Position numbers and translations under genes: made by a program | Shown: one piece after another, positions 4,709 through 24,211 of the stretch | How the letters are laid out: every line of letters begins with the position of its first letter | Numbering within the stretch: the first letter of the stretch is position 1 | Notes under the pieces: model-generated | Database searches by the model: none | What the model saw: only the letters and a program-made list of their open reading frames with translations | Told to the model about the DNA's origin: nothing | Assembly: GCF_036021035.1 (NCBI RefSeq) | Contig: NZ_CP107930.1 | Coordinates: 4,402,001-4,466,000 of the forward strand | DNA length: 64,000 nt | Direction of reading: 5' to 3' | From: Kineococcus sp. NBC_00420 | GTDB lineage: Bacteria; Actinomycetota; Actinomycetes; Actinomycetales; Kineococcaceae

Positions 4709-5668
4709 TCACGCCTCCCGGCGTCGGTTGACGAGGACCTGGAGCAGGGCGATGCCCATGAGGACGGCCATGAGGACGAACGAGGCGGCGCTGGCGTAGC
4801 CGATCTGGCCCTGCTGGAAGCCCGTCCGGAAGATGTACTGGACGACCAGGTTGTTCTCCGTGCCCGGCCCACCGCCGTTCAGGGACTGCAGCAGCGCGTA
4901 CTCCTTCATGGCCCCGAGGCTGCCGAGCAGGATGACGATGAACGACGTCGGGGCGATGCTGGGCAGCGTGATGTAGCGGAACCGCTGCCAGGACGTGGCC
5001 CCGTCGATGGAGGCGGCCTCGTAGTAGGAGGTCGGGACGTTGCGCAGCGCGGCGACGAACAGCAGCATGTTGAAGGCCGTCCCGCCCCAGGCGCCGGCGA
5101 TGGCGACGATGACCAGCGACAGGTTCGCGTTGGACTGCCACGGGACGGCGGAGCCGCCGAAGGACGTGATGAGGAAGTTCACCAGCCCGAAGTTCTCCCC
5201 GAAGATCCACCGCCAGATGACGCCGGCGACGATGGGGGAGATGAGCCACGGGATGAAGAACAGGACGCGCGCGACGGTCTTGCCCTTGGCGTGCGGGCTG
5301 GTCAGCAGCGTCGCCATGGTCAGCGACAGCACGTAGTTCAGCGGCACCGACATGACGGCGAACAGGACCGTCCGGCCGAACGCCGAGTAGAACCCGGCGT
5401 CGCCGAGCAGCTTCTGGTAGTTGGCCAGGCCCACCCACGGGGCCGAGCCGACCCCGGTGTAGCTGGTGAACGAGTAGTACAGCCCCGTCAGCGCCGGCCA
5501 GACGAAGAACAGGAAGAACAGGACCACGTTGACGCCGACGAACAGCAGGGGCGCCACGCGGTAGCGCGCCGCCCGTCGGCGGTTGGCGGAGGCTCGCGGA
5601 GCCTGCACGAGGGCAGCGGGGTCGGTCCCGACGGCGGCGGGGACCGGGCCCGGTGAGGTGGGGGTCAT
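4709..5668 (-). CDS. Carbohydrate ABC transporter permease (MalF type)
   Basis: A 319-residue membrane protein with a cytoplasmic N-terminal extension, about six helices, and the EAA motif (SYYEAASIDGATSWQRFRYI). It forms the heterodimeric sugar channel with the downstream MalG-type permease. It lies 28 bases after the binding-protein gene, with a GGAGG just before the ATG at 5668. The substrate is not evident from sequence. Confidence 0.92.
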   Translation of the reverse strand: MTPTSPGPVPAAVGTDPAALVQAPRASANRRRAARYRVAPLLFVGVNVVLFFLFFVWPALTGLYYSFTSYTGVGSAPWVGLANYQKLLGDAGFYSAFGRTVLFAVMSVPLNYVLSLTMATLLTSPHAKGKTVARVLFFIPWLISPIVAGVIWRWIFGENFGLVNFLITSFGGSAVPWQSNANLSLVIVAIAGAWGGTAFNMLLFVAALRNVPTSYYEAASIDGATSWQRFRYITLPSIAPTSFIVILLGSLGAMKEYALLQSLNGGGPGTENNLVVQYIFRTGFQQGQIGYASAASFVLMAVLMGIALLQVLVNRRREA

Positions 5669-5696
5669 CGAACCTCCTGGGGAGCGCGAGCGGACG

Positions 5697-6995: not shown

Positions 6996-7049
6996 GGTTG
7001 GACGTCCTCGTCTCCGGTCACGAACCGTCTCCTCCGCCGGCGGTGGAGG

Positions 7050-7067
7050 CCGGTCAGGGCTGACCGG
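7050..7067. promoter_or_regulatory. Palindrome in the importer 1 leader
   Basis: CCGGTCA (7050-7056), four bases, TGACCGG (7061-7067). It lies inside the predicted 5' leader, about 40 bases after the start point. It may be an operator for a sugar-responsive repressor or an RNA hairpin. Confidence 0.45.
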
Positions 7068-7111
7068 GGGAGGTGGACGGCACTGCCCTGAGCAGCAGCG
7101 GCAGTTCCGGC

Positions 7112-7141
7112 AAGTTAGGCGGAAAGCCCTTACCTCGTCAA
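7112..7141 (-). promoter_or_regulatory. Sigma-70-type promoter of importer 1
   Basis: On the minus strand TTGACG (7136-7141), 18 bases, then TAACTT (7112-7117). Transcription should start near 7105, giving a leader of about 110 bases. TTCCG/CGGAA half-sites flank the -10 and could bind a repressor. Confidence 0.7.
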
Positions 7142-7173
7142 GTGCCGACACCCGGTGGAGTCGGGATGACTTC

Positions 7174-7199
7174 ACGTCAGAACATGTGCACACTGACGT
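7174..7199. promoter_or_regulatory. Palindromic operator candidate between importer 1 and the lyase-like gene
   Basis: ACGTCAG (7174-7180) and CTGACGT (7193-7199) form a perfect 7-base inverted repeat around a 12-base centre containing TGTGCACA. It lies upstream of both divergent genes, 67 bases before the lyase-like start and 33 bases upstream of the importer -35. Confidence 0.45.
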
Positions 7200-7265
7200 C
7201 CGTCGGACCGCTGCCCCCGCGTGCGTCGGGACGACCCCCACCCCAGCGCCCGGAGGACTGATCGC

Positions 7266-9107: not shown

Positions 9108-11960
9108 TCAGACGGGTGCCAGCACGGCGCGGACCTCGTCGGGGGTGAGCTCCGTCGCCGGGGCGAAGGCGTCCCCGGCGACGTAGGCCAGCAGCGAACG
9201 CCGGAAGGCCGTGGCCGCGGGGGAGTCGTCGAGGGTCAGCGTGCAGACGACGAGCCGGCCCGCCCCCACCCGGGCCTCCAGCAGGACCCCGAGGCGCCGG
9301 GCGGAGAACCAGGTGTCGATGGGCTGCACCAGCGGGCGCAGACCCGTGGGCAGCCCGTCCAGCACGAGGGCCTTCGCGCCGTGCAGCAGGTCCCACCACT
9401 GCCAGTCGGTGTGTCCCTGCGAGGGGAAGCCCGCGAAGAGCGGGTGCCCCGGGTCGTGGGTGATCCCCAGCGTGTGCGGAGCCTGGTTCCGCGTCCACGC
9501 GGTGTTCCAGAACACGGGGGTGAAACCCAGTTCGACCTCCGTGCGGACCCGGGCCGGGTCCGGGGTCAGCAGCACCGTCGCGCCCGCGGCGGTGAGGCGC
9601 AGCGCCTCCTCGACGTCGGCGGTCCGGGTCACCTCCGGCTCCGGGTCGGGCACGGGGGCGTAGACCCACAGCGACCAGTCGTTCTCGTGGACGGTCCCAC
9701 CGCTCGTCCGGACGCGGACCACCAGCCGCACCTGGCGGGTGCGTTCGCTCCACCCCGGTTCGAGCGTCACCGTGCCCAGTCGTGCGTCGTTGCCGTCGGG
9801 GACCTCGCCCCGGCTCAGCACCCCACCGGCCAGCTGCGACCCCGCGGTGTCCTCCACCCGCCAGGAGACCTCCGCGTCCAGGACGCCCGGCCCGAAGTGG
9901 GCCACCTGGACGTCGAAGGAGAACGCCTCGTCGGTGCGCAGGGTCCGCCGGGGCAGGCGGGCCAGCGGCACGACGGGGCCGCAGAACCGGGCGAACTCCG
10001 TGGCGGTGGCGTAGGGCTTCTCGTCCCAGAACGCGTCCAGGACCCCGACCAGGGCCGTGCCCTGACCCGGGAAGTCGTTGAGCCCCAGCAGGTGGAAACC
10101 TGCGAACCCCGGGGTCCGCAGCGCGGTCTCGACCTCCTCCTTGTAGCAGAGCAGCTGCAGGCGACCCGACGCGTGCAGGAACTCCTCGGCCTGGTCGGCC
10201 ATCCCGCTGCGGCGCAGGAAGTCGGCGAAGATCCCGGAGTTCCTCGGCTGCATCAGCCCGGTGTACTTCGAGGCCTCCTGGAAGTCCGGGTACGCGCACC
10301 ACTGCCCGACCTCGTGGCTGACGACCGGTCGCGCTCCCGCGGTCACGAAGGCGGAGTGGTCCGACTCCGTCTGCGGCGGGGTGGCGTTGAGCCGGGAAGC
10401 GAGTCCCTCCTCCCACCGGTGCAGACGGGGGTCGGGCACGTTGTCGAAGTCGTTCTCCGGGATCGCCGGCCACCCGGCGGCACTCGTCCAGAGCCGGCGG
10501 GGATCGAGACGCCGGAAGTGCGCGACCCAGGCGCCGAGGAACTCCACGTCGCGGCCGGCGGGTTCGTTGCCGTGCGCCATGGCCACGAACGAGGGGTGGT
10601 TCCCGTAGGCCTCGAGGATGCGTTCGGTCTCCTCGTGGAGGAAGCGGTCGACGGGGCGTCCCTCGCCGAGCGCGGCGCCCTGGTTCGCCCAGACCGGGCC
10701 CTCGACCTGCAGGAGGACGCCCTCGAGGTCGGCGGCGGTGAAGGCCGCCTCCGGTGGGCACCAGGAGTGGAAGCGGACCAGGTTCAGGCCGTGCGCGCGG
10801 ACGGTGCGCAGGACCCGGCGCCAGGGTTCCACCTCGGTGGGCGGGTACCCCGTCAGCGGCCACACCGCGGACTCCAGGGTGCCGCGCAGGAACGTCGGCC
10901 GGTCGTTGACGGTGACCTGCGTCCCCCGCACCCCCACCTCGCGCAGGCCGAAGGTGGTGCGCCGCGTGTCGTGGTCCCGGCGGTCGCGCACCGTCGCGAG
11001 GAGTTCCACGGTCACCTCGTAGAGGGCCGGGTGGAACTCGTCCCAGGTCTGCGCGTCCGCGCCGAGGGGCAGGTCGACGTCGAGGTGGCCACCGCTGCCG
11101 GTCATCCCGCGTTCGCCGAGGTCGCGGGGGTGGTCGGTGAGTTCCTGGGCCCCGTCGGAGTCGTAGCTCGCGGTCACGGGCGGCGGGACGTGCTCCCCGG
11201 GGACGTTGAACCGCCGTGCGGAGACGGTCACGCTCCCGTGGCCGATGCCGAGCGGTCCGCCGGCGAGGTCGACCCGGACGCGGGCGCTGCGGCGCGCGAC
11301 GTCGGGGACGACGGTGACGCGCCGGATCGTCACCGGTGGGACCGCCTCGAGGCGGAGTTCTCCGACGACCCCGTTCCAGTTCCCCTGGGTGTGGTCGCTG
11401 ACGCTGTGGGCGTTCGGGCCGACGTCGACGACGGTGCGGTTGTCGATCCGCAGGGTCAGCACGTGCCGACCGGGTTCCAACTCGCCGAGGTCGTGGCGGT
11501 GCGGGGTCGAGAGGCTGCGCTGCGGACCCGTCCGGCGGTCGTCGAGCCAGACGACGGACTCCCAGTGCACCCGCTCCAGGTGCAGGACGACCCGCCGCCC
11601 GGCCCAGTCCGGGGGGACGTCGACGGTGCGCTGGAACCACACCGCCCCGCGGTAGTACGTGTGCGGTTGCAACCAGAAGGGGACCGAGACGTTCCCGTCC
11701 TCGCGGTAGGGCGCGTACCTCTCGTCCTCGTAGAAGGACCGGTCGACGACGAGACCCGTCCAGGGGGTCTCGAGGGTGACGGGATCGCCGAACCCCTGCT
11801 CCTGGACGGACCCCGGCAACGTGAGTTCCCGCGTCGCGACGGCGTCCAGCACCGAGGGGCGGTACCAGCGTTCGTGCTCACCGACCCCGTCGGGGTCGAG
11901 GGCCGTGCGCCAGGGGCCGCTCAGGTCGAGGACGTGGTGATCGGGTAGGTCGTCGGGCAT
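9108..11960 (-). CDS. Glycoside hydrolase family 2 protein (beta-galactosidase/glucuronidase type)
   Basis: A 950-residue GH2 enzyme with an N-terminal jelly-roll (residues ~10-210), an immunoglobulin-like domain, a TIM barrel (~350-640) and C-terminal beta domains. The acid/base Glu is in AHGNEP (466) and the nucleophile Glu in VVSHEVGQWC (550). No signal peptide, so it is intracellular. It cleaves non-reducing terminal beta-glycosides by retention; galactoside, glucuronide or mannoside cannot be told apart. AGGAGG lies just before ATG 11960. It is the last gene of the importer 2 operon and should hydrolyse what that system imports. Confidence 0.88.
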   Translation of the reverse strand: MPDDLPDHHVLDLSGPWRTALDPDGVGEHERWYRPSVLDAVATRELTLPGSVQEQGFGDPVTLETPWTGLVVDRSFYEDERYAPYREDGNVSVPFWLQPHTYYRGAVWFQRTVDVPPDWAGRRVVLHLERVHWESVVWLDDRRTGPQRSLSTPHRHDLGELEPGRHVLTLRIDNRTVVDVGPNAHSVSDHTQGNWNGVVGELRLEAVPPVTIRRVTVVPDVARRSARVRVDLAGGPLGIGHGSVTVSARRFNVPGEHVPPPVTASYDSDGAQELTDHPRDLGERGMTGSGGHLDVDLPLGADAQTWDEFHPALYEVTVELLATVRDRRDHDTRRTTFGLREVGVRGTQVTVNDRPTFLRGTLESAVWPLTGYPPTEVEPWRRVLRTVRAHGLNLVRFHSWCPPEAAFTAADLEGVLLQVEGPVWANQGAALGEGRPVDRFLHEETERILEAYGNHPSFVAMAHGNEPAGRDVEFLGAWVAHFRRLDPRRLWTSAAGWPAIPENDFDNVPDPRLHRWEEGLASRLNATPPQTESDHSAFVTAGARPVVSHEVGQWCAYPDFQEASKYTGLMQPRNSGIFADFLRRSGMADQAEEFLHASGRLQLLCYKEEVETALRTPGFAGFHLLGLNDFPGQGTALVGVLDAFWDEKPYATATEFARFCGPVVPLARLPRRTLRTDEAFSFDVQVAHFGPGVLDAEVSWRVEDTAGSQLAGGVLSRGEVPDGNDARLGTVTLEPGWSERTRQVRLVVRVRTSGGTVHENDWSLWVYAPVPDPEPEVTRTADVEEALRLTAAGATVLLTPDPARVRTEVELGFTPVFWNTAWTRNQAPHTLGITHDPGHPLFAGFPSQGHTDWQWWDLLHGAKALVLDGLPTGLRPLVQPIDTWFSARRLGVLLEARVGAGRLVVCTLTLDDSPAATAFRRSLLAYVAGDAFAPATELTPDEVRAVLAPV

Positions 11961-11988
11961 CGCGGGTCCTCCTATCGGTGGTGGGTCG

Positions 11989-12879
11989 TCAGCTCTTGAC
12001 CGCACCCGCGGTCAGCCCTTCGAGCAGTTGCCTGCGCAGCAGCACGAACACGACGAGGCTGGGGATCGCGGCCAGCACCGAGGCCGCGATGACCATGTCG
12101 ATCTGCCGGCTCTGCGCGCCGTAGAGGGCCTGGATGCCCAGCGGGAGGGTGAACCGGTCGGGGTCGGAGACGATGACCAGGGGCCAGATGAAGCTGTTGT
12201 AGCTGTTCAGGAAGTTCCAGACCGCCAGCGCACCCAGCGCCGGGCGCATCAGGGGCAGGACCATCTGCAGGAAGGTGCGGAACTCCGAGCAGCCGTCGAG
12301 GCGCGCGGACTCGAGGATCTCGTCCGGGACGCTCTGCTCGATGAACTGGCGCATCATGAAGATGCCGAAGGCCGGGGCGACCCACGGGACGATCAGGGTG
12401 ACGAGGGGTTCGGTGACACCGCTCTTGACCAGCACGATGAACAGCGGGACGACGATCACCGCGAACGGCACCGCCAGCGAGCTGAACATGACGTCGAAGA
12501 GGATCCGCTTGCCGCGGAACTCGTACTTGGCGAAGCCGAACCCGGCCAGGGCGCAGACGAAGACGGCCACGACCGTGGACAGCACCGCGACCAGCGTCGA
12601 GGTCGCGAACCAGGACCAGAACGGCTGGGTCGAGAGCAGGTTGCGGTAGTTCTCCAGGGTGGCGGGGGAGGGCAGCAACGACGGCGGGTAGCTGAAGATG
12701 TCACCCCGGGCCTTGAACGAGGCCGACAGCGCCCACAGCAGCGGGAACACGAAGACGGCCACGAGGACGACGAGGACGACGTAGAGCGCGGCCCGGCCGG
12801 GGGTGAGCGGTCGGCGGGTCCGCTGCGGGCGGGGCGCCTGCGCGCGGACCGACGGGTCCTGCTGGACGGTGGTGCTCAC
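11989..12879 (-). CDS. Carbohydrate ABC transporter permease (MalG type, importer 2)
   Basis: A 296-residue permease with six membrane helices and an EAA loop (EILESARLDGCSEFRTFLQM). The GTG start overlaps the stop of the MalF-type gene by 4 bases and GGAGG precedes it. It ends 28 bases before the GH2 gene. It works with the adjacent permease and binding protein; no ATPase is encoded nearby. Confidence 0.92.
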   Translation of the reverse strand: MSTTVQQDPSVRAQAPRPQRTRRPLTPGRAALYVVLVVLVAVFVFPLLWALSASFKARGDIFSYPPSLLPSPATLENYRNLLSTQPFWSWFATSTLVAVLSTVVAVFVCALAGFGFAKYEFRGKRILFDVMFSSLAVPFAVIVVPLFIVLVKSGVTEPLVTLIVPWVAPAFGIFMMRQFIEQSVPDEILESARLDGCSEFRTFLQMVLPLMRPALGALAVWNFLNSYNSFIWPLVIVSDPDRFTLPLGIQALYGAQSRQIDMVIAASVLAAIPSLVVFVLLRRQLLEGLTAGAVKS

Positions 12880-13796
12880 CGGGTACCTCCCACTCCGAAG
12901 ACTCGGTTGGCCGTGCGGCCCAGCGCGAACACCAGGACGAACATGACGACACCCGCGGCGGCGGCGTAGCCCATCTGCTGGCGTTCGAAGGCGGCGCGGA
13001 AGATGAACTGGGCGACGGACAGCGTCGACTCGCCCGGACCGCCCTGGGTCAGCAGGTACGGTTCCTCGAAGATCTGGGCACTGCTCACCAGGGTCGTGAC
13101 CGCGACGAACGCGGTGACCGGTCGCAGCACCGGCAGGGTGACGGCGAAGAACGTCCGGACCGGTCCGGAACCGTCGAGGGCGGCCGCTTCGTAGAGTTCC
13201 CGGGGGACGTTCTGCAGACCGGCGAGGAAGAAGATGGTCATGTAGCCCGTCCACTTCCAGACGACGAGGAGGACGACGCTGAGCTTCGCCCACGACGGGT
13301 CGCCGAGCCAGTCGATGCCACCCCACCCGAAGACGCCGCGGAAGAAGGCGTTGAACAGCCCGAACTCCCGGTCGTAGAACAGGGTGAAGACCAGGGCGAT
13401 GACGATGGGTGAGAGCACGACCGGGGTGAAGTAGGACAGCCGGAACAGGTCCCGTCCGCGCAGCCCGCGGGCGTTGAGCGCCTGGGCGATGAGCAGGGCC
13501 AGCGGGAGGACGACGAGCATGCTGACGGCGACGTAGATCGCGGTGTTGCCGACGGCGGTCCAGAAGCTGGTGTCGGTGAACAGCCAGCGGTAGTTCTGCA
13601 GACCGACGAAGGTCGGGCTGCCGATGCCGGCCCAGTCGGTGAGGCTGAGGTAGGCCCCGACCCCGATCGGGACGATCATGAAGAGGCCGTAGAGGACGAA
13701 GAACGGGGAGATGAAGACGTAGGGGGCCCGGCTGGGGGTCACGCCCGTGGTGGTGGGGGTGACGGGCGTGGTGCGCGGGGCGGTCGTGGTGGTCAT
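12876..13796 (-). CDS. Carbohydrate ABC transporter permease (MalF type, importer 2)
   Basis: A 306-residue permease with a Thr/Pro-rich cytoplasmic N-terminus (MTTTTAPRTTPVTPTTTG), six helices and an EAA loop (ELYEAAALDGSGPVRTFFAV). ATG 13796 overlaps the binding-protein stop by 4 bases. It partners the MalG-type protein encoded next. Confidence 0.92.
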   Translation of the reverse strand: MTTTTAPRTTPVTPTTTGVTPSRAPYVFISPFFVLYGLFMIVPIGVGAYLSLTDWAGIGSPTFVGLQNYRWLFTDTSFWTAVGNTAIYVAVSMLVVLPLALLIAQALNARGLRGRDLFRLSYFTPVVLSPIVIALVFTLFYDREFGLFNAFFRGVFGWGGIDWLGDPSWAKLSVVLLVVWKWTGYMTIFFLAGLQNVPRELYEAAALDGSGPVRTFFAVTLPVLRPVTAFVAVTTLVSSAQIFEEPYLLTQGGPGESTLSVAQFIFRAAFERQQMGYAAAAGVVMFVLVFALGRTANRVFGVGGTR

Positions 13797-15121
13797 TCCC
13801 GGGCCTGCTTCCGGTAGCTCTCGACGGAGTCCGCGATGGCCTGCGCGGCGGTGGAACGTCCACGGATCGCGGCCTGGACGGGCCCGGCGAGCGCCGACTG
13901 GAGGATCGCGAAGTTCGGGCTCTGGTAGAACGCGGGGAGGTCGGTGGCGGCCTCGCCGAGGACCTCGAAGACGCGCTGACCCCCGAGGTAGTCGTCCTCG
14001 ATGGCGAGCAGTTCGGGGTCGGTGTAGAGCGAGCGGAACGTCGGGAGGTAGCCGGCCGCCTTGTAGCGCAGCAGTTGTCCCTCGCGGGTGAGGTAGGTCG
14101 CGGTGAGCAGTTCCTTCGCGGCCTCGGTGTTGACCTTGTCCTTGGTGACGGCGAACCCGGTGCCACCGGAACTGGAGGCGATGTGCCCGCCGCCGGCGAA
14201 GCGGGGGGCGACACGCATGCGCCACAACCCCTTCTGGTCCGGCACGTTGGCCTGCAGACCGTAGGCGTTGTACCAGTTCGGCATGAACGTCCCGATCAAC
14301 TGGCCCTGCTTCAACGCCGCCGCCAGCGGGGCGCCGTACGCGTCGGGGAGGTTGATCAACGTCCCGTTGGCGACGCCGCGGGCCATCCAGTCGACCGTCT
14401 CGACGGCCTCGGGGGAATCCAGGATCAGACCCCCGTCCTCGTCGAAGAACCCGCCACCACGCTGCAACAACCACTGCAGCAGGGAGTTCGCGGTGTCGCC
14501 CGGGGTCCCGGTCCCGACCATGGCCAGCGACTGCCCGGTCCTGCGGTGGAGCGCCGCGCCGACCTCGAGGAGGTCCTCCCAGGTGTCGACGTCGGTCGGG
14601 AGTCCGTTCTTCGCGAACTCGTCCTCGCGGTACCAGTAGATGCTCAGGCAGGTGTCGGACTCGATGGCGTAGACGCCACCGTCGACGGAGTAGGGCTGTC
14701 GGCGCAGCAGGTCGTCGCCGTACTGCGCGAGGTCGTCGGTCCAGTCCACGAGGATGTCGCCCGCGACGCCGCTGCGCATGACGCGGTTGAACTGCCCGAC
14801 CTCGATGCCGGTGAGGTCCGGGGTGCCCTTGCCGACGATCGCCTGGTTGATGAACCGGGTCATGACGTCCCCGGCGGCGCTCTGGGTGACCTGGACGTCG
14901 TAGCGGAACGGCGACGTCGTCGAGAGTTCCGCGGCGGACTCGGTGAACGTCTTCACGTAGCCGGGGTCGTGGGTCCACATCTGCAGGTCCACGGCGCCGG
15001 ACGACGCCGCGGGGCCGTAGGCCGCGTCCGCGCAGCCGGTGAGGGAACCCGCCGCGGCAAGTCCGGCACCGGCCAGGAAGGTCCGGCGGGAGGGGGTGGG
15101 CTGGGGCCATCGGGTCTGCAT
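13793..15121 (-). CDS. Sugar ABC transporter substrate-binding lipoprotein (importer 2)
   Basis: A 442-residue binding protein with a twin-arginine motif SRRTFLAG and lipobox LTGC (Cys30), so probably Tat-exported and lipid-anchored. The start at ATG 15121 has GAGGA just upstream. An in-frame GTG at 15193 lies 6 bases after the TAGCGT -10 of the AraC-type promoter, so a leaderless, 24-residue-longer form is possible. It heads importer 2 and GH2. The ligand is probably a galactoside-like oligosaccharide, judged from the GH35 and GH2 neighbours only. Confidence 0.9.
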   Translation of the reverse strand: MQTRWPQPTPSRRTFLAGAGLAAAGSLTGCADAAYGPAASSGAVDLQMWTHDPGYVKTFTESAAELSTTSPFRYDVQVTQSAAGDVMTRFINQAIVGKGTPDLTGIEVGQFNRVMRSGVAGDILVDWTDDLAQYGDDLLRRQPYSVDGGVYAIESDTCLSIYWYREDEFAKNGLPTDVDTWEDLLEVGAALHRRTGQSLAMVGTGTPGDTANSLLQWLLQRGGGFFDEDGGLILDSPEAVETVDWMARGVANGTLINLPDAYGAPLAAALKQGQLIGTFMPNWYNAYGLQANVPDQKGLWRMRVAPRFAGGGHIASSSGGTGFAVTKDKVNTEAAKELLTATYLTREGQLLRYKAAGYLPTFRSLYTDPELLAIEDDYLGGQRVFEVLGEAATDLPAFYQSPNFAILQSALAGPVQAAIRGRSTAAQAIADSVESYRKQARE

Positions 15122-15199
15122 CGCGTCCTCGTCGACTCGGGGGTGGGTGTCACGGGGGACCACGCCGCGGGTCCGACGTCGTCGTCCGCCCACGCCGTG

Positions 15200-15260
15200 A
15201 CGCTACGTCGCGCGGAGTTCCCGCAACCATGGGTGATCCGACTCAGCCCATGGACGAAAC
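15200..15260 (-). promoter_or_regulatory. AraC-type operator/promoter A (importer 2-GH2 operon)
   Basis: Reading on the minus strand: GTTTCGTCCAT, 17 bases, CCATGG (15227-15232), 21 bases, TAGCGT (15200-15205). The two CCAT half-sites are 21 bases apart, two helical turns, in direct orientation. No -35 hexamer is visible. The distal half lies inside the end of the GH35 gene. Identical architecture is found at sites B and D. Confidence 0.75.
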
Positions 15261-17582
15261 CCCGGTGGCCACGACCACCCGCGCGATCCGCACGACCTCG
15301 ACGGAACGGACGTGGACACCGTCCGGCACGTCGCGCACGGACGGGTCCACGAACACCCCCGTCGCCCTGTGCCACGGGAGGAGTTCCAGGTCGAGGCCGT
15401 CGCGGCTCACCGGGTCCCGCCACGGGGTCAGGTCGAGTTCCCAGACGCGGCCGTGCCAGAAGTGGTCGCTGACCACGACCCCGTCGACCACGGCCCGGCC
15501 GACGTCACCGGTCCAGTCGATCCGCAGCAGCACCCGGTCGGTCCCGGTGAGGAGTTCCGGCGGGACGTCCACGTGGACCCGGGCCGCGCCGGAGAAGTCG
15601 GTGGGGGCGCTGAGCCGGTCCGCCGGTCCACCGCGGCGGGGCGCGGGCGGGGCGGGGGCGATCGGGTGCAGGTCGCGCAGCAGGGTCACCGTGCCGCTGC
15701 CGGCCACCGCCACCGTCTGCGTGGACCACGGGTCCTCCGCCCGGCCCGTCAGGACCGAGAGCGTGACCGCGTCCCGGTCGGTGTGCAGGACGAGCCCACC
15801 CTCGCCCGCGTAGAGCGGGGCGTCGCTGAGGACGAGGCGTCGTGCGCCGTCCACGTCGAGGGCGTAGAGGCGGTTCGCGGTGGCCTCGTCGAGCACCAGC
15901 AGGCGCACCCCGGGGAGTTCGACGACGCTCGCGGGGCCGGGCTCCCGGGTGAGCTCGACGACGGTGGCGCCGTCCCGGAACTCCCCACGGGCGGTCCCGG
16001 ACACCGCCGTCCGCCCCTCGAGGACGAGTTCGACGGGAACCCCGTCGGTGGCGACGAGGACCACGAACCCGTGCCCGGCCACGGTGGTCCGGGTGAGGAC
16101 CTGCGCGGTGGCGCTGCGCAGGACGAGACCGTCGGCGAGGGGGTAGCGGACCGGCCACGCCACCGACACCCCGGGGGGCAGGTCGAGCGGACGGCTGGGC
16201 AGGGTCACCGCGCCGTCGTCGAACTCCACGGTGAACCGGACGCCCGGTTGCGCCGCGAGGGGGTGGCGCGCCGGTTGGTAGGTGGTGACGAACACGTACC
16301 CCCGCAAGCCGTCGGAACGCACGGCCCAGCGCAGTTCGCCCGGATCCTCGCCGCCCCCGCCGACGACGCTGGGCATCGCGGCGAGCGCGGAACCGTCCTC
16401 GGCCAGCCAGAGGTGCTGGCGGCGCAGCAGGTGGTGGTGCCGGCGGACCTGCCCGTGCTCGCCGATCGGGGCGGCGAAGTCGTAGCTGCGGGTGGGGACG
16501 TCGTTGGGGTACCCGGTGGCGTGGGACTCCTGCTGGGTCCCCTCCGCCCCGGTCCGCTGGGTGCCCCCGGCGTAGACGTAGTACCCCTGCCAGACCGAGC
16601 CGCTGCCGATCTTCGCCAGGGCCAGCGCGGCGACGTCCTCGGGGGTGACGAGCGGTCGCCGGTGGTACGCGACGTGCATGCCGCCGCCGAGTTCGCAGGT
16701 GGCGAAGGGGGACGCGGTGTCGTCCGTGCGCGCCACCGCCGCGGACGTGACCCCGTCCAGGGCGGCCCGCACGTCGGCCCCGACGCTGAGGTCGTCGCGC
16801 TCCCGGGTGTAGCGGAAGTGCAGACGGCCGTAAGCCGGCCAGTCGGTGCCGGCCTCGTCCCAGAACCCGTCGGAGTACGCGCCGTAGACCGGGAGCAGCG
16901 TGTCCGGGACCTGCGCCCCGCCCCAGCCGGTCGCGGTCCAGACCGGCACCCGGAGCCCGAGCTCCTCGGCGGTCTCGCGCAACCGGGCCAGGTGCTCCGG
17001 CTGGTCGTAGAGCTCGTTGTCGATCTGGGCGGCCACGACCGGGCCGCCGGACGCGTGGGTCAGGTCGGCCACCTGCGCGATGGTCTCGGCGTAGAAGCGG
17101 CGCACGAGGTCGAGGTAGGCCGGGTCGTTCGTCCGGGTCGCGAGGTCACGGGACACCAGCCAGTCCGGGAAACCCCCGTGGCGGGACTCGCCGTGGGCCC
17201 ACGGCCCCAGCCGGAGCACGACGTCCAGGCCGTTCCCGGCCGCGGTCACCACGAAGGCGCGCAGGTCGAGGTCGCCGTCCCAGCGGAAGTCCCCGGGGGC
17301 GGGTTCGTGGGCGTTCCAGAACACGTAGGTGGCCACCGAGGTCAGCCCGCCGACCCGGGCGTGGCCCAGGACCTCGGACCAGCGTTCCCGCGGGACGCGG
17401 GAGAAGTGGACCTCGCCCGTCACGGGGAACCACGGCCTGCCGCCCCGTTCGAGCCGGCCGCTGGTGACCTCGATGCGGTCCGGGGTGCCGGCGGGTTCCC
17501 CCAGCGGGAGGTGCCCCCGGCGGACGTCCGCGGGCCTCCCGGCGCGCAGGGTGCGGGTGGGGTGCGCGACGTCGGCGTCCAT
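15243..17582 (-). CDS. Glycoside hydrolase family 35 beta-galactosidase
   Basis: A 779-residue enzyme. The N-terminal TIM barrel has FPVTGEVHFSRVPRERW, the acid/base Glu190 in QIDNELYD and a nucleophile candidate Glu297 in FATCELGGG. The C-terminal part consists of beta domains that form the usual GH35 carbohydrate-binding lobes. GH35 enzymes release terminal beta-galactose with retention. QIDNE replaces the more common QxENE, a small deviation. No signal peptide, so intracellular. ATG 17582 is 8 bases after the TAGCCT of operator B and has no ribosome site, so the mRNA is probably leaderless. Confidence 0.87.
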   Translation of the reverse strand: MDADVAHPTRTLRAGRPADVRRGHLPLGEPAGTPDRIEVTSGRLERGGRPWFPVTGEVHFSRVPRERWSEVLGHARVGGLTSVATYVFWNAHEPAPGDFRWDGDLDLRAFVVTAAGNGLDVVLRLGPWAHGESRHGGFPDWLVSRDLATRTNDPAYLDLVRRFYAETIAQVADLTHASGGPVVAAQIDNELYDQPEHLARLRETAEELGLRVPVWTATGWGGAQVPDTLLPVYGAYSDGFWDEAGTDWPAYGRLHFRYTRERDDLSVGADVRAALDGVTSAAVARTDDTASPFATCELGGGMHVAYHRRPLVTPEDVAALALAKIGSGSVWQGYYVYAGGTQRTGAEGTQQESHATGYPNDVPTRSYDFAAPIGEHGQVRRHHHLLRRQHLWLAEDGSALAAMPSVVGGGGEDPGELRWAVRSDGLRGYVFVTTYQPARHPLAAQPGVRFTVEFDDGAVTLPSRPLDLPPGVSVAWPVRYPLADGLVLRSATAQVLTRTTVAGHGFVVLVATDGVPVELVLEGRTAVSGTARGEFRDGATVVELTREPGPASVVELPGVRLLVLDEATANRLYALDVDGARRLVLSDAPLYAGEGGLVLHTDRDAVTLSVLTGRAEDPWSTQTVAVAGSGTVTLLRDLHPIAPAPPAPRRGGPADRLSAPTDFSGAARVHVDVPPELLTGTDRVLLRIDWTGDVGRAVVDGVVVSDHFWHGRVWELDLTPWRDPVSRDGLDLELLPWHRATGVFVDPSVRDVPDGVHVRSVEVVRIARVVVATGVSSMG

Positions 17583-17590
17583 GACGGCTC

Positions 17591-17651
17591 AGGCTAGGTG
17601 CGCGCCCCGGTGGGGAACCATGGGTGATCCCGCGCCGGGGATGGACGAAAC
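17591..17651 (-). promoter_or_regulatory. AraC-type operator/promoter B (GH35)
   Basis: On the minus strand: GTTTCGTCCAT, 17 bases, CCATGG (17618-17623), 21 bases, TAGCCT (17591-17596), 8 bases, ATG of GH35. It fills the gap between the AraC and GH35 genes. The match to site A covers both half-sites and all spacings. Confidence 0.75.
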
Positions 17652-17653
17652 GC

Positions 17654-18529
17654 TCACGCGGTCCGGGCGCGGAACGCCGTCGGCGACTGGCCGTGGGTCC
17701 GGCTGAACTGGCGGGAGAAGTACAACCCGTCGTCGTAGCCGCAGGCGGTCGCGACCTCCGCCACGCTCAGCGACGTGCCGTCGAGCAGTTCCCGGGCGCG
17801 GGCCATCCGCAGGTCGCTCTGGTAGCGCAGCGGGGAGGTCCCGACGTGCTGGCGGAACAGGGTCCCCAGCTGCGAGGGGCTGAGTCCGACCATCGCCGCG
17901 AGGGCGTCGACGGGGGTCCGTCGCGGCGTGGTCGCCCGCAGGTGCTCGACGGCCCGTTCCACCGGGCTCAACGCGGGGCCGCGGGGCCGGCGCCCGGTGG
18001 CGATCACCTGCGTGAGCGCGTGGAACGCGGCCCCCGAGGCCTGGACGAGCCCCCCGGCCGTCCCGGTGTCGAGGGCGTCCAGCACCCCCGACACCAGGCT
18101 CGTCAGCGCACCGGGGTCGCGCAGGTGCGAGACCGGACCGCCCGCGGCGGTGGCCGCCGCGGTCAGCAGGTCGTCGGCGTCGGGGCCCGTGACGTGCATC
18201 CACCACAACGTCCACGGGTCCTCGCGGTCGGCCCCGTACTCGTGGGCGACCCCGGCGCGCAGCAGGACGGCGTCGCCGCGGTGCACGGGGTGGGAACCCT
18301 GCGGGGTCCGGCACCAGCCCGAACCGTCCGTGCAGAAGAGCACCACGTGCTGGCGGGCACCCTCGGGCCGACCCCGGCCGTGATCGGCAGCCCGGGGGAA
18401 GAACCCGGCGTCGGTGACCAGCAGCCGGTCCGTCACGGGGCGGGTCCTCGCCTCGCGCACCACGGGCCGGGGGAGGACGAACATCCGCTGCCCGGCGAAA
18501 CCGTCCCGCACCGTGGCCGCTTCGTCCAT
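17654..18529 (-). CDS. AraC-family transcriptional regulator
   Basis: A 291-residue regulator with an N-terminal cupin-like sugar-sensing domain (residues ~1-150) and a C-terminal double helix-turn-helix (~195-291). The HTH includes VDALAAMVGLSPSQLGTLFR and the signature VATACGYDDGLYFSRQFSRTHGQSP. It most likely binds the direct repeats A, B and D and activates the island when its sugar is present. It has its own -35/-10 promoter (TTGACC, 17, TTCCAT) ending 6 bases before ATG 18529, so it is probably leaderless and independent of the repeats. Confidence 0.9.
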   Translation of the reverse strand: MDEAATVRDGFAGQRMFVLPRPVVREARTRPVTDRLLVTDAGFFPRAADHGRGRPEGARQHVVLFCTDGSGWCRTPQGSHPVHRGDAVLLRAGVAHEYGADREDPWTLWWMHVTGPDADDLLTAAATAAGGPVSHLRDPGALTSLVSGVLDALDTGTAGGLVQASGAAFHALTQVIATGRRPRGPALSPVERAVEHLRATTPRRTPVDALAAMVGLSPSQLGTLFRQHVGTSPLRYQSDLRMARARELLDGTSLSVAEVATACGYDDGLYFSRQFSRTHGQSPTAFRARTA

Positions 18530-18535
18530 CCGGCC

Positions 18536-18564
18536 ATGGAACGCGCCGACCGGGGCGGGGTCAA
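18536..18564 (-). promoter_or_regulatory. Promoter of the AraC gene
   Basis: On the minus strand TTGACC (18559-18564), 17 bases, TTCCAT (18536-18541), 6 bases, ATG 18529. Unlike sites A, B and D it has a -35, so basal expression without activator is expected. Confidence 0.55.
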
Positions 18565-18582
18565 GCGGCTCGCCGCCCGGTG

Positions 18583-18642
18583 GTTCGTCCATGTCCGCCG
18601 TCGTTCGAGCCATGGCGGCGGCGGCCGGGCCGCGCCTAGCGT
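18583..18642 (+). promoter_or_regulatory. AraC-type operator/promoter D (DUF5107-TPR gene)
   Basis: On the plus strand: GGTTCGTCCAT, 17 bases, CCATGG (18610-18615), 21 bases, TAGCGT (18637-18642), 7 bases, GTG. Orientation relative to the driven gene is the same as for A and B. Confidence 0.75.
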
Positions 18643-18649
18643 CTCGATC

Positions 18650-21583
18650 GTGGAGCAGACGACAGTCCCCGGCATCACCCTCCCCGACGCCCCCGAGCGG
18701 CTGCGGCCGGACCTGGCGGCGGGCGCCGCGGTGGCGTGGAACGCGCCCCTGACCATCCGGACCTACGAGGCGGGTGAACCCAGCCCGTTCCCGATGTACC
18801 TCGACCGCCGCGTCTACCAGGGCTCCAGCGGCACGGTGTACCCGCTGCCGTTCGTCGAGCACGTCGCCGACCACGGGATCGACCGGGAGTGGCAGGCGGT
18901 CCACCTGGAGAACCGCTACGTGCGGCTGGTGGTGCTGCCCGAACTCGGTGGCCGGATCCACGTCGGCTACGACAAGATCACCGGGTACGACTTCTTCTAC
19001 CGCAACGACGTGGTCAAACCCGCGCTCGTCGGTCTCGGGGGCCCCTGGATCAGCGGTGGCGTCGAGTTCAACTGGCCGCAGCACCACCGTCCCGGGACCT
19101 ACCTCCCCGTCGAGACCACGATCCAGCACGACGAGGACGGGACCGTCACCGTCTGGTGCGGGGACCACGACCCGTTCCAGCGCATGGCCGCCCAGCACGG
19201 GGTGCGGTTGCGTCGCGACAGCTCCGTCGTCGAACTCGTGGTCCGGTTGCACAACCGGACCAGCGACCGGCAGTCGTTCCTGTGGTGGGCCAACGTCGCG
19301 GCCCGCGTCCACGAGGAGTTCCAGTCGTTCTTCCCCGAGGACGTCCGCCACGTCGCCGACCACGCCCGGCGGGCGATCACCGGGTTCCCCCGGTCCGATC
19401 GCGACTACTACGGCGTGGACTACCCGCAGCGGGCCCGCGAGAACCCCGGTGCGGACCGCATCGACTTCTACCGCAACATCCCGGTGCCCACCTCGTACAT
19501 GGTGGTCGACTCCCAGGGGGACTTCTTCGGCGGTTACGACCACGCCGCGGGAGCGGGGTTCGTGCACTGGGCCGAACGACGGATCTCCCCCGGCAAGAAG
19601 CAGTGGACGTGGGGGAACGCCCCCTTCGGCCACGCCTGGGATGCCCAGCTGAGCGACGACGACGGCCCCTACGTGGAACTCATGGCCGGCGTCTACACCG
19701 ACAACCAACCCGACTTCAGCTGGTTGCTGCCGGGGGAGACGAAGACGTTCGTGCAGCACTGGTACCCGGTGCCGGCGATCGGCGTCGTGCACCAGGCGAC
19801 CCCGGACGCCGCGGTGCACGTGGAACGGGGTTCCACCGTCGTCGCCCGTTTCGCCGTCACCGCGACCCGGCGCCGCGCGCAGCTGCGCATCCTCCGGGAC
19901 GGGGAACTCGTCGCCTCCCGGACCGCGGACCTGACCCCGGGGGTTCCCGCGGAGGTGACCTGGGAGGGTTCCACCGGAGCACTGCGGGTGGAACTCCTCG
20001 ACGCGGCCGGACGGGTCCTCGTGCGGTGGGCACCGGTCGAGGTCGACGAGAACGCCGGAGAGCCCGAGGTGGCGACGGAACCTCCCACGCCCGAGGCGAC
20101 GGGTTCGGTGGAGGAGTTGTTCCTCACCGGCCTGCACCTCAGTCAGTACCGCCACCCCACGAGGTCCCCGGTGCCTTACTGGCGCGAGGCGTTGCGCCGC
20201 GACCCCGGCGACGTCCGGACGAACCTCGCCCTGGCCGACCGCGCCTACCGCGCCGGGTCCTACGAGACGGCGCGGCGGGGGGTCGAGACGGCGTTGCGCC
20301 GCCTCACCCGGCGCAACGCGAACCCCCTCGACGCCGAGGCGTACTACCTGCACGGTCTGGTGCTGGCCCGGCTCGGCCGGGTCGAGGACGCCGAACGGGC
20401 GTTCGGGAAGGCCGGCTGGGACGGCACCTGGGCCGCCGCCGCCGGTCTGGAACTCGCCCGTTCGCTGGCGCGCCGCGGTCGCAACCGCGCCGCCCTGCGC
20501 GTCCTCGACACCCTGGACGGGGTGGTCGCCCACGACACCCGGCGGATCGCGGTGCGGGTGCTGCTCTGGCGTCGGAGCGGGAACCACCGAGGTGCGGGCG
20601 AGGTGCTGCGGGCCGCGCTCGCGGTGGACCCGCTGGACGCGACGCTGCGCTTCCTGGACCAGCGCGAGCTCGCCGACGACGCGGGTCTGCTGCTGGACGT
20701 CGCGCTCGACCTGCGCGCGGCCGGGGAGCACGGGCAGGCCCTGCGGTTGCTCGAGCGCGTCGCCGCGGTCCCCGTCGGTGCCGCCGGGAACTTCCGGCCC
20801 GTCGCGGAGTACGCGGCCGCGGTCGTGCACGAGGAACTCGGCTCCCCGGCGGAGGCGGCGGCGGCCCGCGACCGGGCCCGTCGCAGCGACCCGACCCGGG
20901 CCTTCCCGTCCGGCCTCGACGCGCACGACGTCCTGCTCGCCGCCCTCGACGCCGATCCCGCGGACACCACCGCGGGGTTCCTGCTGGGCAACCTGCTCTA
21001 CGCCCACGGCCGTCGGGTCGAGGCGAGCGAACTCTGGGAGGCGTGCGTCGCCCGGGGGATGCGCCACCCCGTCCTGCTGCGCAACGCGGGCCTCGCCGCC
21101 CACAACGTCTCCCACGACGACGAACGCGCCTGGGCGCGCTACGCAGCGGCGGTCGAGGTCTCCGGTGCGGACGCGCGGCTGCGCTACGAGCAGGACCAGC
21201 TGGCCGTCCGGCTCGGCCACGACCCCGCGCAGCGCTTCGCGCGCCTGCGACCGGTCGAGGACCTCGTCCTGACCCGCGACGACCTGACGGTGGACTACGT
21301 CGCGCTGCTGCTCGACCAGGGGTTCGCGGCGCGGGCCCGCGAGATCCTCTCGACCCGGCCGTTCCACCCCTGGGAGGGCGGCGAGGGCCGGGTCGTCGCC
21401 GCCTGGGACGCGACCGCCGCCGCACTCGGCGTGGACCCCGGGGACCCCCCGACCTCGCTCGGCGAGGCCCGCCCCCTCCACCCGGCCCCGGCGGCCGTGG
21501 GCGCCGACGGCGCCACCGACTACTTCGCCACCAGCCTCCCGGACCTCCTGCTCTTCGCGCGGGAGGACGGGGACGGGTGGTGA
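18650..21583 (+). CDS. DUF5107 and TPR-repeat protein
   Basis: A 977-residue protein without signal peptide. Residues ~40-380 match the DUF5107 type: a mutarotase-like beta-sandwich with GRIHVGYDKITGYDFFYRND, GVEFNWPQHHRPGTYLP and NRTSDRQSFLWWANVA. The rest (~470-900) is tetratricopeptide-like helical repeats (YYLHGLVLARLGRVEDAERAF). DUF5107-TPR proteins are often found in glycan-use loci, but their activity is not established. GTG 18650 lies 7 bases after the operator D -10, consistent with a leaderless mRNA. It overlaps the mutarotase-like gene by 4 bases. Confidence 0.82.
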   Translation: MEQTTVPGITLPDAPERLRPDLAAGAAVAWNAPLTIRTYEAGEPSPFPMYLDRRVYQGSSGTVYPLPFVEHVADHGIDREWQAVHLENRYVRLVVLPELGGRIHVGYDKITGYDFFYRNDVVKPALVGLGGPWISGGVEFNWPQHHRPGTYLPVETTIQHDEDGTVTVWCGDHDPFQRMAAQHGVRLRRDSSVVELVVRLHNRTSDRQSFLWWANVAARVHEEFQSFFPEDVRHVADHARRAITGFPRSDRDYYGVDYPQRARENPGADRIDFYRNIPVPTSYMVVDSQGDFFGGYDHAAGAGFVHWAERRISPGKKQWTWGNAPFGHAWDAQLSDDDGPYVELMAGVYTDNQPDFSWLLPGETKTFVQHWYPVPAIGVVHQATPDAAVHVERGSTVVARFAVTATRRRAQLRILRDGELVASRTADLTPGVPAEVTWEGSTGALRVELLDAAGRVLVRWAPVEVDENAGEPEVATEPPTPEATGSVEELFLTGLHLSQYRHPTRSPVPYWREALRRDPGDVRTNLALADRAYRAGSYETARRGVETALRRLTRRNANPLDAEAYYLHGLVLARLGRVEDAERAFGKAGWDGTWAAAAGLELARSLARRGRNRAALRVLDTLDGVVAHDTRRIAVRVLLWRRSGNHRGAGEVLRAALAVDPLDATLRFLDQRELADDAGLLLDVALDLRAAGEHGQALRLLERVAAVPVGAAGNFRPVAEYAAAVVHEELGSPAEAAAARDRARRSDPTRAFPSGLDAHDVLLAALDADPADTTAGFLLGNLLYAHGRRVEASELWEACVARGMRHPVLLRNAGLAAHNVSHDDERAWARYAAAVEVSGADARLRYEQDQLAVRLGHDPAQRFARLRPVEDLVLTRDDLTVDYVALLLDQGFAARAREILSTRPFHPWEGGEGRVVAAWDATAAALGVDPGDPPTSLGEARPLHPAPAAVGADGATDYFATSLPDLLLFAREDGDGW

Positions 21584-22518
21584 GCGTCCCGGGACGGGCG
21601 TTCCACCTGGTGGACGCCGGGTACGAGGCCCACGTGATGAGCGTCGGGGCGACGCTGCGCCGGCTGACGTCCCGGGGTCGCGACCTCGTCCTGCCCTTCG
21701 AGGCGGCCCAGGTGCGGCCGGCGATGTCGGGCACGCTGCTGGCGCCCTGGCCCAACCGGGTCGGCGACGGTCGCTACGTCTTCGGGGGTGCGACGCACCA
21801 GCTCGACGTGAACGAGGTCGACCTGGGCAACGCCACGCACGGCCTCGTCGCGTGGTCGGACTTCGACGGCCACCAGGACGGACCGGACCACGTTCGGCTC
21901 ACCACGACGATCGAGCCCCGGCCGGGCTACCCCTGGTGCGTCGACCTGTCGGTCGACCTCACCCTCGGGGAGTCCGGGCTGCGCCAGGAGGTCACGGCCG
22001 TCAACCGCAGCGGCTCTCCCGCGCCCTTCGGGGTGGGCGGACACCCGTACCTGCTGGCGGGGCTGCCGGAGGAGCGGGCAGTGGACGCCTGGTTCCTCGA
22101 GGTCCCCGCCGAGCGCGTGCTCACGACCGACGAGCGCCGGCTGCCGGTGGGGGAGGTCGCCGTCGCCGGTGCGCTCGACTTCCGGGCGCGGCGGCCCGTG
22201 GGTGACGTCGTCCTGGACCGGTCCTTCACGGGGCTGCGGGCGGGGCCCGACGGCTTCGTGCGGGTCCGGGTCACCGACGCCGGGGGCCGGGGAGCCGAGC
22301 TCGTCCTCGATCACCGCTGCCCGTGGGTCCACGTCTACTCCGCCGACCTCTCCACGGGAGCAGCCCACCGCGCCGCGCTCGCCGTCGAACCCCTGACCTG
22401 CCCGCCGGACGCGTTCCGTTCCGGTCGTGACCTCATCGGCCTGGCCCCGGGGGCCTCGACCACGGCGGGCTGGACGATCCGGGCCGTGGGTGGCGGCGGG
22501 GACGCGGCGAGCGACTAG
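21580..22518 (+). CDS. Aldose 1-epimerase family protein
   Basis: A 312-residue mutarotase-fold protein: APWPNRVGDGRY, NATHGLVAW (catalytic His region), GVGGHPYLLAG (second His) and AVEPLTCPPDAF (Glu base). Such enzymes interconvert alpha and beta anomers of aldoses such as galactose. The GTG overlaps the DUF5107-TPR stop (GTGA), so it belongs to the AraC-linked island and would handle beta-galactose released by GH35/GH2. Exact sugar unknown. Confidence 0.88.
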   Translation: MSVPGRAFHLVDAGYEAHVMSVGATLRRLTSRGRDLVLPFEAAQVRPAMSGTLLAPWPNRVGDGRYVFGGATHQLDVNEVDLGNATHGLVAWSDFDGHQDGPDHVRLTTTIEPRPGYPWCVDLSVDLTLGESGLRQEVTAVNRSGSPAPFGVGGHPYLLAGLPEERAVDAWFLEVPAERVLTTDERRLPVGEVAVAGALDFRARRPVGDVVLDRSFTGLRAGPDGFVRVRVTDAGGRGAELVLDHRCPWVHVYSADLSTGAAHRAALAVEPLTCPPDAFRSGRDLIGLAPGASTTAGWTIRAVGGGGDAASD

Positions 22519-22521
22519 CCT
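22516..22521 (+). promoter_or_regulatory. Leaderless promoter -10 of ettA
   Basis: TAGCCT overlaps the stop codon of the mutarotase-like gene and lies 7 bases before the GTG of ettA. Confidence 0.5.
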
Positions 22522-22528
22522 GGGGCCC

Positions 22529-24211
22529 GTGGCGGAATTCATCTACGTGATGTCCAAGGCTCGCAAGGCGCACGGGGACAAGGTCATCCTCGACGACGTC
22601 TCGATGTCGTTCTTCCCCGGCGCGAAGATCGGGGTCGTCGGCCCCAACGGTGCGGGCAAGTCGAGCGTGCTGAAGATCATGGCGGGGCTCGACCAGCCCT
22701 CCAACGGCGAGGCCCGCCTCTCGCCGGGCTACAGCGTCGGCATCCTCATGCAGGAGCCGGCCCTCGACGAGACCAAGACGGTGCTGCAGAACGTCCAGGA
22801 CGGTCTCGGCGAGCTCAAGGTCAAGATGGACCGCTACAACGAGATCACCGGTCTCTTCGAGGACCCCGACGCCGACTTCGACGCCCTCATGTCGGAGATG
22901 GGCCAGCTGCAGGAGGAGCTCGACCACGCCAACGCGTGGGACATGGACTCCCAGCTCGAGCAGGCCATGGACGCGCTGCGCTGCCCGCCCGGCGACTCCG
23001 ACGTCTCGGTCCTCTCCGGGGGGGAGAAGCGTCGCGTCGCCCTGTGCAAGCTGCTGCTCGAGCAGCCCGACCTGCTGCTGCTCGACGAACCCACCAACCA
23101 CCTCGACGCCGAGTCGGTGACGTGGCTGGAGCAGCACCTCGCGAAGTACCCCGGTGCCGTGCTGGCCGTGACCCACGACCGCTACTTCCTCGACAACGTC
23201 GCGCAGTGGATCCTCGAGCTCGACCGCGGTCGCGCCTACCCCTACGAGGGCAACTACTCCACCTACCTGGAGAAGAAGCAGTCCCGCATGGAGGTCCAGG
23301 GCAAGAAGGACCTCAAGCTGGCCAAGCGCCTCAAGGACGAGCTCGAGTGGGTCCGCTCCAACGCCAAGGGCCGCCAGACCAAGTCCAAGGCGCGCCTGAA
23401 CCGCTACGAGGAGATGGCCGCCGAGGCCGAGCGCACGCGCAAGCTCGACTTCGAGGAGATCCAGATCCCGGCCGGTCCCCGGCTGGGTCAGGTCGTCATC
23501 GAGGCGAAGGACCTCAAGAAGTCCTTCGGTGACCGCACCCTCATCGAGGGTCTGTCCTTCTCCTTGCCGCGCAACGGCATCGTCGGCGTCATCGGGCCCA
23601 ACGGCGTCGGGAAGACGACGCTGTTCAAGACCATCGTCGGCCTCGAGGACCTCGACTCCGGCGACCTCAAGATCGGCGAGACGGTCAAGCTGTCCTACGT
23701 CGACCAGTCCCGCGGTGGCCTGGACGCGTCGAAGTCGCTGTGGGAGACGGTCTCCGACGGCCTGGACTACATCCAGGTCGGCAACCAGGAGATGCCCTCG
23801 CGGGCCTACGTCTCGGCGTTCGGCTTCAAGGGCCCGGACCAGCAGAAGCCGGCCGGCGTCCTCTCCGGCGGGGAGCGCAACCGCCTCAACCTGGCGCTGA
23901 CGCTCAAGGAGGGCGGCAACGTCCTGCTCCTCGACGAACCCACCAACGACCTCGACGTCGAGACCCTGGGGTCGCTCGAGAACGCCCTGCTGGAGTTCCC
24001 CGGGTGCGCCGTCGTCGTGAGCCACGACCGCTGGTTCCTCGACCGGGTGACGACGCACATCCTGGCCTACGAGGGCACGGAGGAGAACCCGGGGAACTGG
24101 TACTGGTTCGAGGGGAACTTCGCCGGCTACGAGGAGAACAAGGTCTCCCGCCTCGGGCCGGACGCCGCGCGCCCGCACCGCGTGACGTACCGCAAGCTCA
24201 CCCGCGACTGA
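22529..24211 (+). CDS. ettA: Energy-dependent translational throttle protein EttA (ABC-F ATPase)
   Basis: A 560-residue ABC-F protein with two ATPase domains and no membrane segments. Domain 1: Walker A GPNGAGKSS (~38), signature LSGGEKRR, Walker B LLLLDEPTNHL. A charged linker follows. Domain 2: GPNGVGKTT (~356), LSGGERNR, LLLDEPTNDLD. EttA binds the ribosomal E site and gates entry into elongation by ATP/ADP ratio. The start VAEFIYVMSKARKAHG matches the family and lies 7 bases after a TAGCCT. A perfect 18-base terminator follows. Confidence 0.95.
   Translation: MAEFIYVMSKARKAHGDKVILDDVSMSFFPGAKIGVVGPNGAGKSSVLKIMAGLDQPSNGEARLSPGYSVGILMQEPALDETKTVLQNVQDGLGELKVKMDRYNEITGLFEDPDADFDALMSEMGQLQEELDHANAWDMDSQLEQAMDALRCPPGDSDVSVLSGGEKRRVALCKLLLEQPDLLLLDEPTNHLDAESVTWLEQHLAKYPGAVLAVTHDRYFLDNVAQWILELDRGRAYPYEGNYSTYLEKKQSRMEVQGKKDLKLAKRLKDELEWVRSNAKGRQTKSKARLNRYEEMAAEAERTRKLDFEEIQIPAGPRLGQVVIEAKDLKKSFGDRTLIEGLSFSLPRNGIVGVIGPNGVGKTTLFKTIVGLEDLDSGDLKIGETVKLSYVDQSRGGLDASKSLWETVSDGLDYIQVGNQEMPSRAYVSAFGFKGPDQQKPAGVLSGGERNRLNLALTLKEGGNVLLLDEPTNDLDVETLGSLENALLEFPGCAVVVSHDRWFLDRVTTHILAYEGTEENPGNWYWFEGNFAGYEENKVSRLGPDAARPHRVTYRKLTRD

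Follow-up and report, generated by a model that had tools for sequence, protein, structure and literature searches.

A predicted AraC-type regulon with three copies of one composite operator-promoter in a sugar-gene island of Kineococcus

In Escherichia coli, the AraC half-sites araI1 and araI2 at the PBAD promoter are spaced by 21 bp, and the second helix-turn-helix (HTH) of AraC, HTH2, contacts the TCCAT part of the half-site. This is the closest described counterpart of the system analyzed here, namely, three composite elements, A, B and C, that are predicted to serve as operator-promoters of an AraC-family protein encoded in a sugar-gene island of Kineococcus sp. NBC_00420 (contig NZ_CP107930.1, positions 4,402,001 to 4,466,000; this whole stretch of 64,000 nucleotides is referred to as the window). 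According to the accessible text of the respective papers, the motifs of AraC-family regulators are direct repeats with a 21-bp periodicity (PMC3870299), RNA polymerase is recruited from araI2 (PMC4760080), and the half-site of E. coli AraC is TAGC-N7-TCCATA (PMC4514859).

The Kineococcus locus resembles the E. coli system in the AraC-family membership of the regulator, the presence of two directly oriented half-sites immediately upstream of the promoter and the location of the regulator gene beside its putative targets. The TCCAT core, as given in the accessible text of PMC4514859, is also shared, and the second HTH contains DD-LYFSR-F in both proteins. The window differs in that one island carries three copies of the operator, the targets are likely leaderless and a half-site lies under the araC start codon, and no CRP site or araO2-type loop of the E. 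coli kind is shown for the island. The AraC-family rhamnose regulators of the Bacillales, Bacteroides and Enterococcus groups, as covered in the accessible text of PMC3870299, are set apart by other motif letters, genes, sugar and phyla.

Three copies of the composite in the island

We consider it highly probable, on comparative grounds, that A, B and C serve as operators and promoters through which the AraC-family protein encoded between B and C activates the three sugar-gene units together. The pattern GKTTCGTCCAT-N17-CCATGG-N21-TAGCST occurs in the window in three exact copies with fixed spacings (Table 1) and in none of 100 dinucleotide-preserving shuffles of the window; the triple composite is real, not a chance pattern. 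The initial annotation had read these three composites correctly to the letter and had placed A and B where they are, although C begins at 18582, not 18583. Its gene assignments are likewise borne out by Pfam: A precedes genes for a solute-binding protein (SBP), two permeases and a GH2 glycosidase, B precedes GH35, C precedes the DUF5107-TPR protein and an epimerase, and the araC gene lies in the middle of the island.

The regulator combines a C-terminal double HTH of the AraC type (HTH_18, E 1e-23; HTH_AraC, 9e-16) with an N-terminal sugar-type ligand-binding and dimerization domain (PF02311, AraC_binding, E 2.1e-14), and its best sequence match in PDB is the DNA-binding domain of E. coli AraC (2k9s, E 2.4e-15).

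A search of the whole genome (one contig of 5,434,400 bases) for the composite with fixed spacings, which had been proposed along with the original observation, found that it is not widespread. With up to three mismatches, TTCGTCCAT-N17-CCATGG-N21-TAGNNT occurs at four places, that is, A, B and C at zero mismatches and a fourth place that lacks CCATGG at three; the reversed-pattern control of the full composite yielded no matches in the genome at the same threshold. When the -10 is omitted, TTCGNCCAT-N17-CCATGG with up to two mismatches is found at 44 places in the genome (only A, B and C at zero mismatches, 2 places at one and 39 at two), compared to 18 for the reversed control. Specificity is thus lost at two mismatches without the -10, which implies that the full spacing matters.

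The two CCAT half-sites are in direct orientation and 21 bases apart in all three composites, as originally described. The 17-base self-similarity has its maximum at offset 21 in A (10/17); in B, this offset is narrowly the best (7/17 versus 6/17 at four other offsets), and in C, it ties with offset 20 (9/17). The further proposal that the proximal half occupies the position of a missing -35 is only loosely right: the hexamers at the 17-base spacing from the -10 are GGTTGC, GGTTCC and GGCGGC in A, B and C, respectively, and CCATGG overlaps them by two bases. In Mycobacterium tuberculosis, promoters as a rule have TANNNT but no -35 consensus (PMC3898074, accessible text), so that the lack of a -35 does not by itself argue strongly for an activator. 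No sigma-70 promoters or terminators of the expected form were found in 15000-18800, a negative result of little weight given that shuffles average only 0.0 and 0.4, respectively.

In the mechanism that we propose, a sugar-bound dimer would occupy the two direct half-sites 21 bp apart, and the proximal half-site, abutting a poor -35 position, would help RNA polymerase onto the TAGCST -10, such that the importer-GH2 operon, GH35 and the DUF5107-TPR/epimerase pair would be switched on together. Among the relatives, a single predicted operator usually serves the divergent genes and extends across the araC start codon; in the window, each of the three gene units has its own operator copy, with only one half-site left over the araC start. 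Binding, activation, induction by galactosides and the transcription start points are all predictions of this model, in which the ligand is plausibly a beta-galactoside, given the presence of GH35 and GH2.

The layout in loci of related regulators

Matches to the regulator at E<=1e-80 are present in 12 of the 396 genomes of the order, including its own; the other matches are 66-73% identical in ten genomes and 52% in G466 (50-73% for the close relatives overall). The close-relative set consists of 12 loci, L006 (Myceligenerans indicum) and L074-L084, with L080 and L005 (Miniimonas arenae) counted once. These loci, the window, L085 and the more distant L007-L010 were scanned for TTCGTCCAT-N17-CCATGG followed by TANNNT at 19-23 bases, and a site was counted if no more than three of the 15 fixed letters were mismatched and the -10 was located at 20 or 21 bases. 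The layout is found in all 12 close-relative loci within about 2 kb of araC, at 13 sites in total, from which L006:12746 (3 mismatches, CGAAGG, spacing 22), L082:14079 (4 mismatches) and L010:9966 (4 mismatches, in a more distant relative) were excluded; L085 and L007-L009 have no site at the scan threshold. In the alignment of the 13 sites (A1), the invariant letters are T, TCCAT, C-AT and TA---T, and these columns remain invariant when the window sites are added (A2). The sites lie on either side of araC, in several gene orders, and the driven genes are DUF5107-TPR at nine sites, GH35 at three and GH2 at one; for L078, the assignment is based on tblastn. Four of the 13 sites are located away from the araC start codon, so that coding constraint there does not explain them. 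In two of the loci, L077 10511-16294 (+) and L078 7585-13359 (+), DUF5107-TPR and GH35 are fused in one open reading frame (ORF) of 1927 and 1924 amino acids, respectively (Pfam domains were assigned for L077 only).

The promoters of nine of the 13 relatives' sites and of at least two of the three window sites look leaderless. At these nine sites, the start codon of the driven ORF follows the -10 by 5 (L006) or 6 nt; at the remaining four (L075, both L080 sites and L083), the likely start is further downstream. In the window, the GH35 (ATG) and DUF5107-TPR (GTG) starts are located 8 and 7 nt past the -10, and both proteins are probably made from leaderless mRNAs; the SBP start is ambiguous, 6 nt (GTG) or 78 nt (ATG) after the -10 of site A. 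In terms of the TANNNT test, the start-codon distance is 14 nt for B, 13 nt for C and, if the GTG is used, 12 nt for A, with 12 nt in most relatives. In the accessible text of PMC3160421, the TANNNT of leaderless actinobacterial genes is located about 12 bp upstream of the start codon; the island is alike in this distance and adds the conserved activator repeat.

An independent profile, R1, was derived solely from the sequences of the 13 relatives' sites, with the window sites left out, and 150 of the 4192 first-look candidates were scored in the genome search. In the genome of the window, site A ranks first (E 3.0e-7) and site B second (E 5.4e-5); when the window alone was searched without filters, the three composites outranked all others among the 28 matches listed (C, E 0.0011), and the segment at the araC start, 18518-18568, is an insignificant fifth (E 0.33). 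Across 12 genomes, the 17 matches at E<=0.001 include, besides A and B, 12 training sites; of the three remaining matches, one, in G571 (E 5.6e-6), precedes a gene for GH2 located about 5 kb from araC. Among 198 genomes of the order, R1 matches at E<=1e-4 occur in 11, each with a relative of the regulator within about 2 kb. Seven of these genomes supplied training sites, and the genome of the window, G148, G223 and G422 supplied none; in G422, only the HTH part of the relative is found on the locus (43% over 155 amino acids). Among the 11 genomes of the genus, matches at E<=0.01 are limited to the genome of the window and a weak partial place in G008, with none in nine of the ten other genomes. 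A weak match (E 0.046) at L103 (G454:C1:2275659-2275718) reads TTTCGTCCAC...CCCATTG...TACGGT, followed after 6 nt by ATG; the 3-kb locus around it encodes no AraC relative.

The wider subfamily uses variants of the half-site. Of the 19 loci with relatives 43-48% identical to the regulator, 13 have a long divergent ORF with TANNNT 5-8 nt upstream of its start codon, and 12 of these 13 carry a related upstream half-site, ATCGTCCA, ATCATCCA, TTCGTCCA or TTTTGTCCA; neither element is found in the remaining six (L008, L015, L052, L060, L061 and L062). In the tree, with half-site types labeled by hand, a branch with 100/100 support separates the 12 AraC proteins encoded at TTCGTCC loci from the others. 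L057, outside this branch, was filed as ATCGTCC but reads TTCGTCC so that, going by the letters, a second change of this half-site type has to be assumed in the tree. Sister sites with GATCGTCCA and xCATTC are present in L075 (15700-15765, minus strand), L110 and L083 (about 8560-8640, minus strand), preceding a GH2 gene in L075 and a DUF5107 gene in L083, with TANNNT, 6 nt and a start codon; perhaps, these belong to a paralogous regulator.

Competing explanations

The relatives' loci and the R1 results favor what the initial annotation had suggested, regulation by an AraC-type protein that recognizes half-sites directly repeated at 21 bp, just upstream of a -10. Several observations weigh against this interpretation. 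The direct repeat is imperfect, and weak in B and C; the TAGC A-box of the E. coli half-site is not seen in alignment A2; the distal half also encodes the N terminus of AraC at nine of the 13 relatives' sites; and activation is not distinguishable from repression in the sequence. In the R1 search, site C ranks only fifth in its own genome (E 0.109), behind two partial matches, and three matches elsewhere point the same way: one at G591:C63 (E 7.5e-4) and the partial one in G008 (E 0.004), neither of which has an AraC relative within its 3-kb locus, and another partial one in G557 (E 8e-4).

The motif could also be read by a different regulator encoded elsewhere, with the AraC protein a mere bystander. 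Close variants (ATCGTCCA with CATTC) do occur before GH2 in L075 and at G591:C63, paralogous regulators may share a motif, and CCATGG is palindromic. We nevertheless regard this scenario as improbable because a relative of the regulator is found nearby in every one of the genomes with strong R1 matches and because the tree separates the TTCGTCC loci with full support, with the reservations about hand labels and L057. Alternatively, A, B and C could be repressor operators, with RNA polymerase blocked until the sugar frees the protein, and a half-site over the araC start codon indeed fits repression of araC itself. In A, B and C, both half-sites are, however, upstream of the -10, at a poor -35, which is the araI1/araI2 position where AraC activates (PMC4760080, accessible text), so repression at these promoters seems quite unlikely. 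That the three copies reflect chance, or recent copying of one promoter segment, without regulatory meaning appears extremely improbable: A and B do share letters outside the motif (GGATCACCCATGGTT), but the shuffles contain no composite, the composite is unique in the genome, and the layout is retained in all 12 relatives' loci, mostly from other families of the order.

Control of araC, origin of the island and its genes

In the relatives, araC itself appears to be under the same control. The distal half is antisense to the first araC codons at nine of the 13 relatives' sites, which implies shared autocontrol, and TTGAC is found 31-32 nt before the araC ATG in seven of these nine shared operators and 30 nt before it in the window. 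Binding over the araC start in the relatives is likely to hinder araC expression, resulting in autorepression. The araC gene of the window starts with ATGGACGAA. Over this start lies the lone half-site, separated by 63 bp from the distal half-site of C; the position of the partner of the lone half-site reads CGACCG, with no -10 after it, the working pair being site C. This lone half-site corresponds to the relatives' shared operator, and the araC message in the window is predicted to be leaderless. In L075, ATGGACGAA is retained although no paired site is present at this position, so conservation over the araC start may be partly due to the N terminus of the protein. We dropped the idea that the 63-bp segment 18521-18583 had been directly duplicated given that, by eye, the next 63 bases are unlike it beyond the motif. 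Tentatively, the operator across the araC start in the relatives might both switch on the divergent leaderless sugar genes and block the araC start, and this unit might have been split in the window, leaving the lone half-site, three repeats (63 bp) from C, as an auxiliary operator that tunes araC and C; we see this as possible but rather doubtful.

No close orthologues of the regulator and GH35 (15243-18529) are found in the ten other genomes of the genus, four of which encode AraC relatives with 46-49% identity. The nearest relatives come from other families within this order, suggesting that the island may have been acquired by transfer or lost elsewhere. No relatives of the regulator were found in viral contigs, and among 1448 plasmid records, every best place is below 60% identity (26-32% in the top rows). 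In L074, DUF5107, GH35, SBP and two permeases form one operon row behind one operator; in the window, these genes are distributed over three units, each preceded by its own copy of the operator.

The island is predicted to be a conserved three-promoter AraC-type regulon with an already known direct-repeat architecture, an ordinary kind of switch. The regulon and its gene set appear to be undescribed in the literature searched, which did not include subscription papers. The regulon is testable, with operators defined at the level of letters, for a regulator-GH35-DUF5107-TPR module present in several families of one actinobacterial order, and the predicted shared control ties the uncharacterized DUF5107-TPR proteins to enzymes of the beta-galactoside type. 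The related loci, with two or more half-site variants, provide material for the study of how AraC-family HTHs read DNA.

Table 1. Coordinates of the predicted control elements and genes of the island
Feature	Position	Strand	Remarks
Site A, whole composite	15200-15260	-	exact pattern match
Site A, distal half	15250-15258	-	TTCGTCCAT; overlaps final codons of GH35
Site A, proximal half	15227-15232	-	CCATGG
Site A, -10	15200-15205	-	TAGCGT
Site B, whole composite	17591-17651	-	exact pattern match; begins 2 nt beyond araC stop codon
Site B, distal half	17641-17649	-	
Site B, proximal half	17618-17623	-	
Site B, -10	17591-17596	-	TAGCCT
Site C, whole composite	18582-18642	+	exact pattern match
Site C, distal half	18584-18592	+	
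Site C, proximal half	18610-18615	+	
Site C, -10	18637-18642	+	TAGCGT
Lone half-site	18521-18529	+	TTCGTCCAT; antisense of araC codons 1-3 (ATGGACGAA)
Predicted araC promoter	18536-18564	-	TTGACC 18559-18564, 17 bases, TTCCAT 18536-18541, ATG 6 nt on
araC-type regulator, 291 amino acids	17654-18529	-	AraC_binding and HTH_18 (Pfam); start at 18529
GH35 (beta-galactosidase family)	15243-17582	-	Pfam
Solute-binding protein	13793-15121	-	Pfam; ATG 15121, alternative leaderless GTG 15193
ABC permease 1	12876-13793	-	Pfam
ABC permease 2	11989-12900	-	Pfam
GH2 glycosidase	9108-12005	-	Pfam
DUF5107-TPR protein, 977 amino acids	18650-21583	+	Pfam
Aldose 1-epimerase (mutarotase)	21580-22518	+	Pfam; overlaps DUF5107 gene end

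Read from ATG 15121, the SBP has a Tat-like lipoprotein start (signal judged by eye). A second importer, consisting of a permease (4709-5668) and an SBP domain in frame 5697-9014, is encoded at 4709-9014 on the minus strand, with no composite in front. Directly after the epimerase, the plus strand encodes an ABC-F-like protein (22427-24211) with two ABC_tran stretches and ABC_tran_Xtn.

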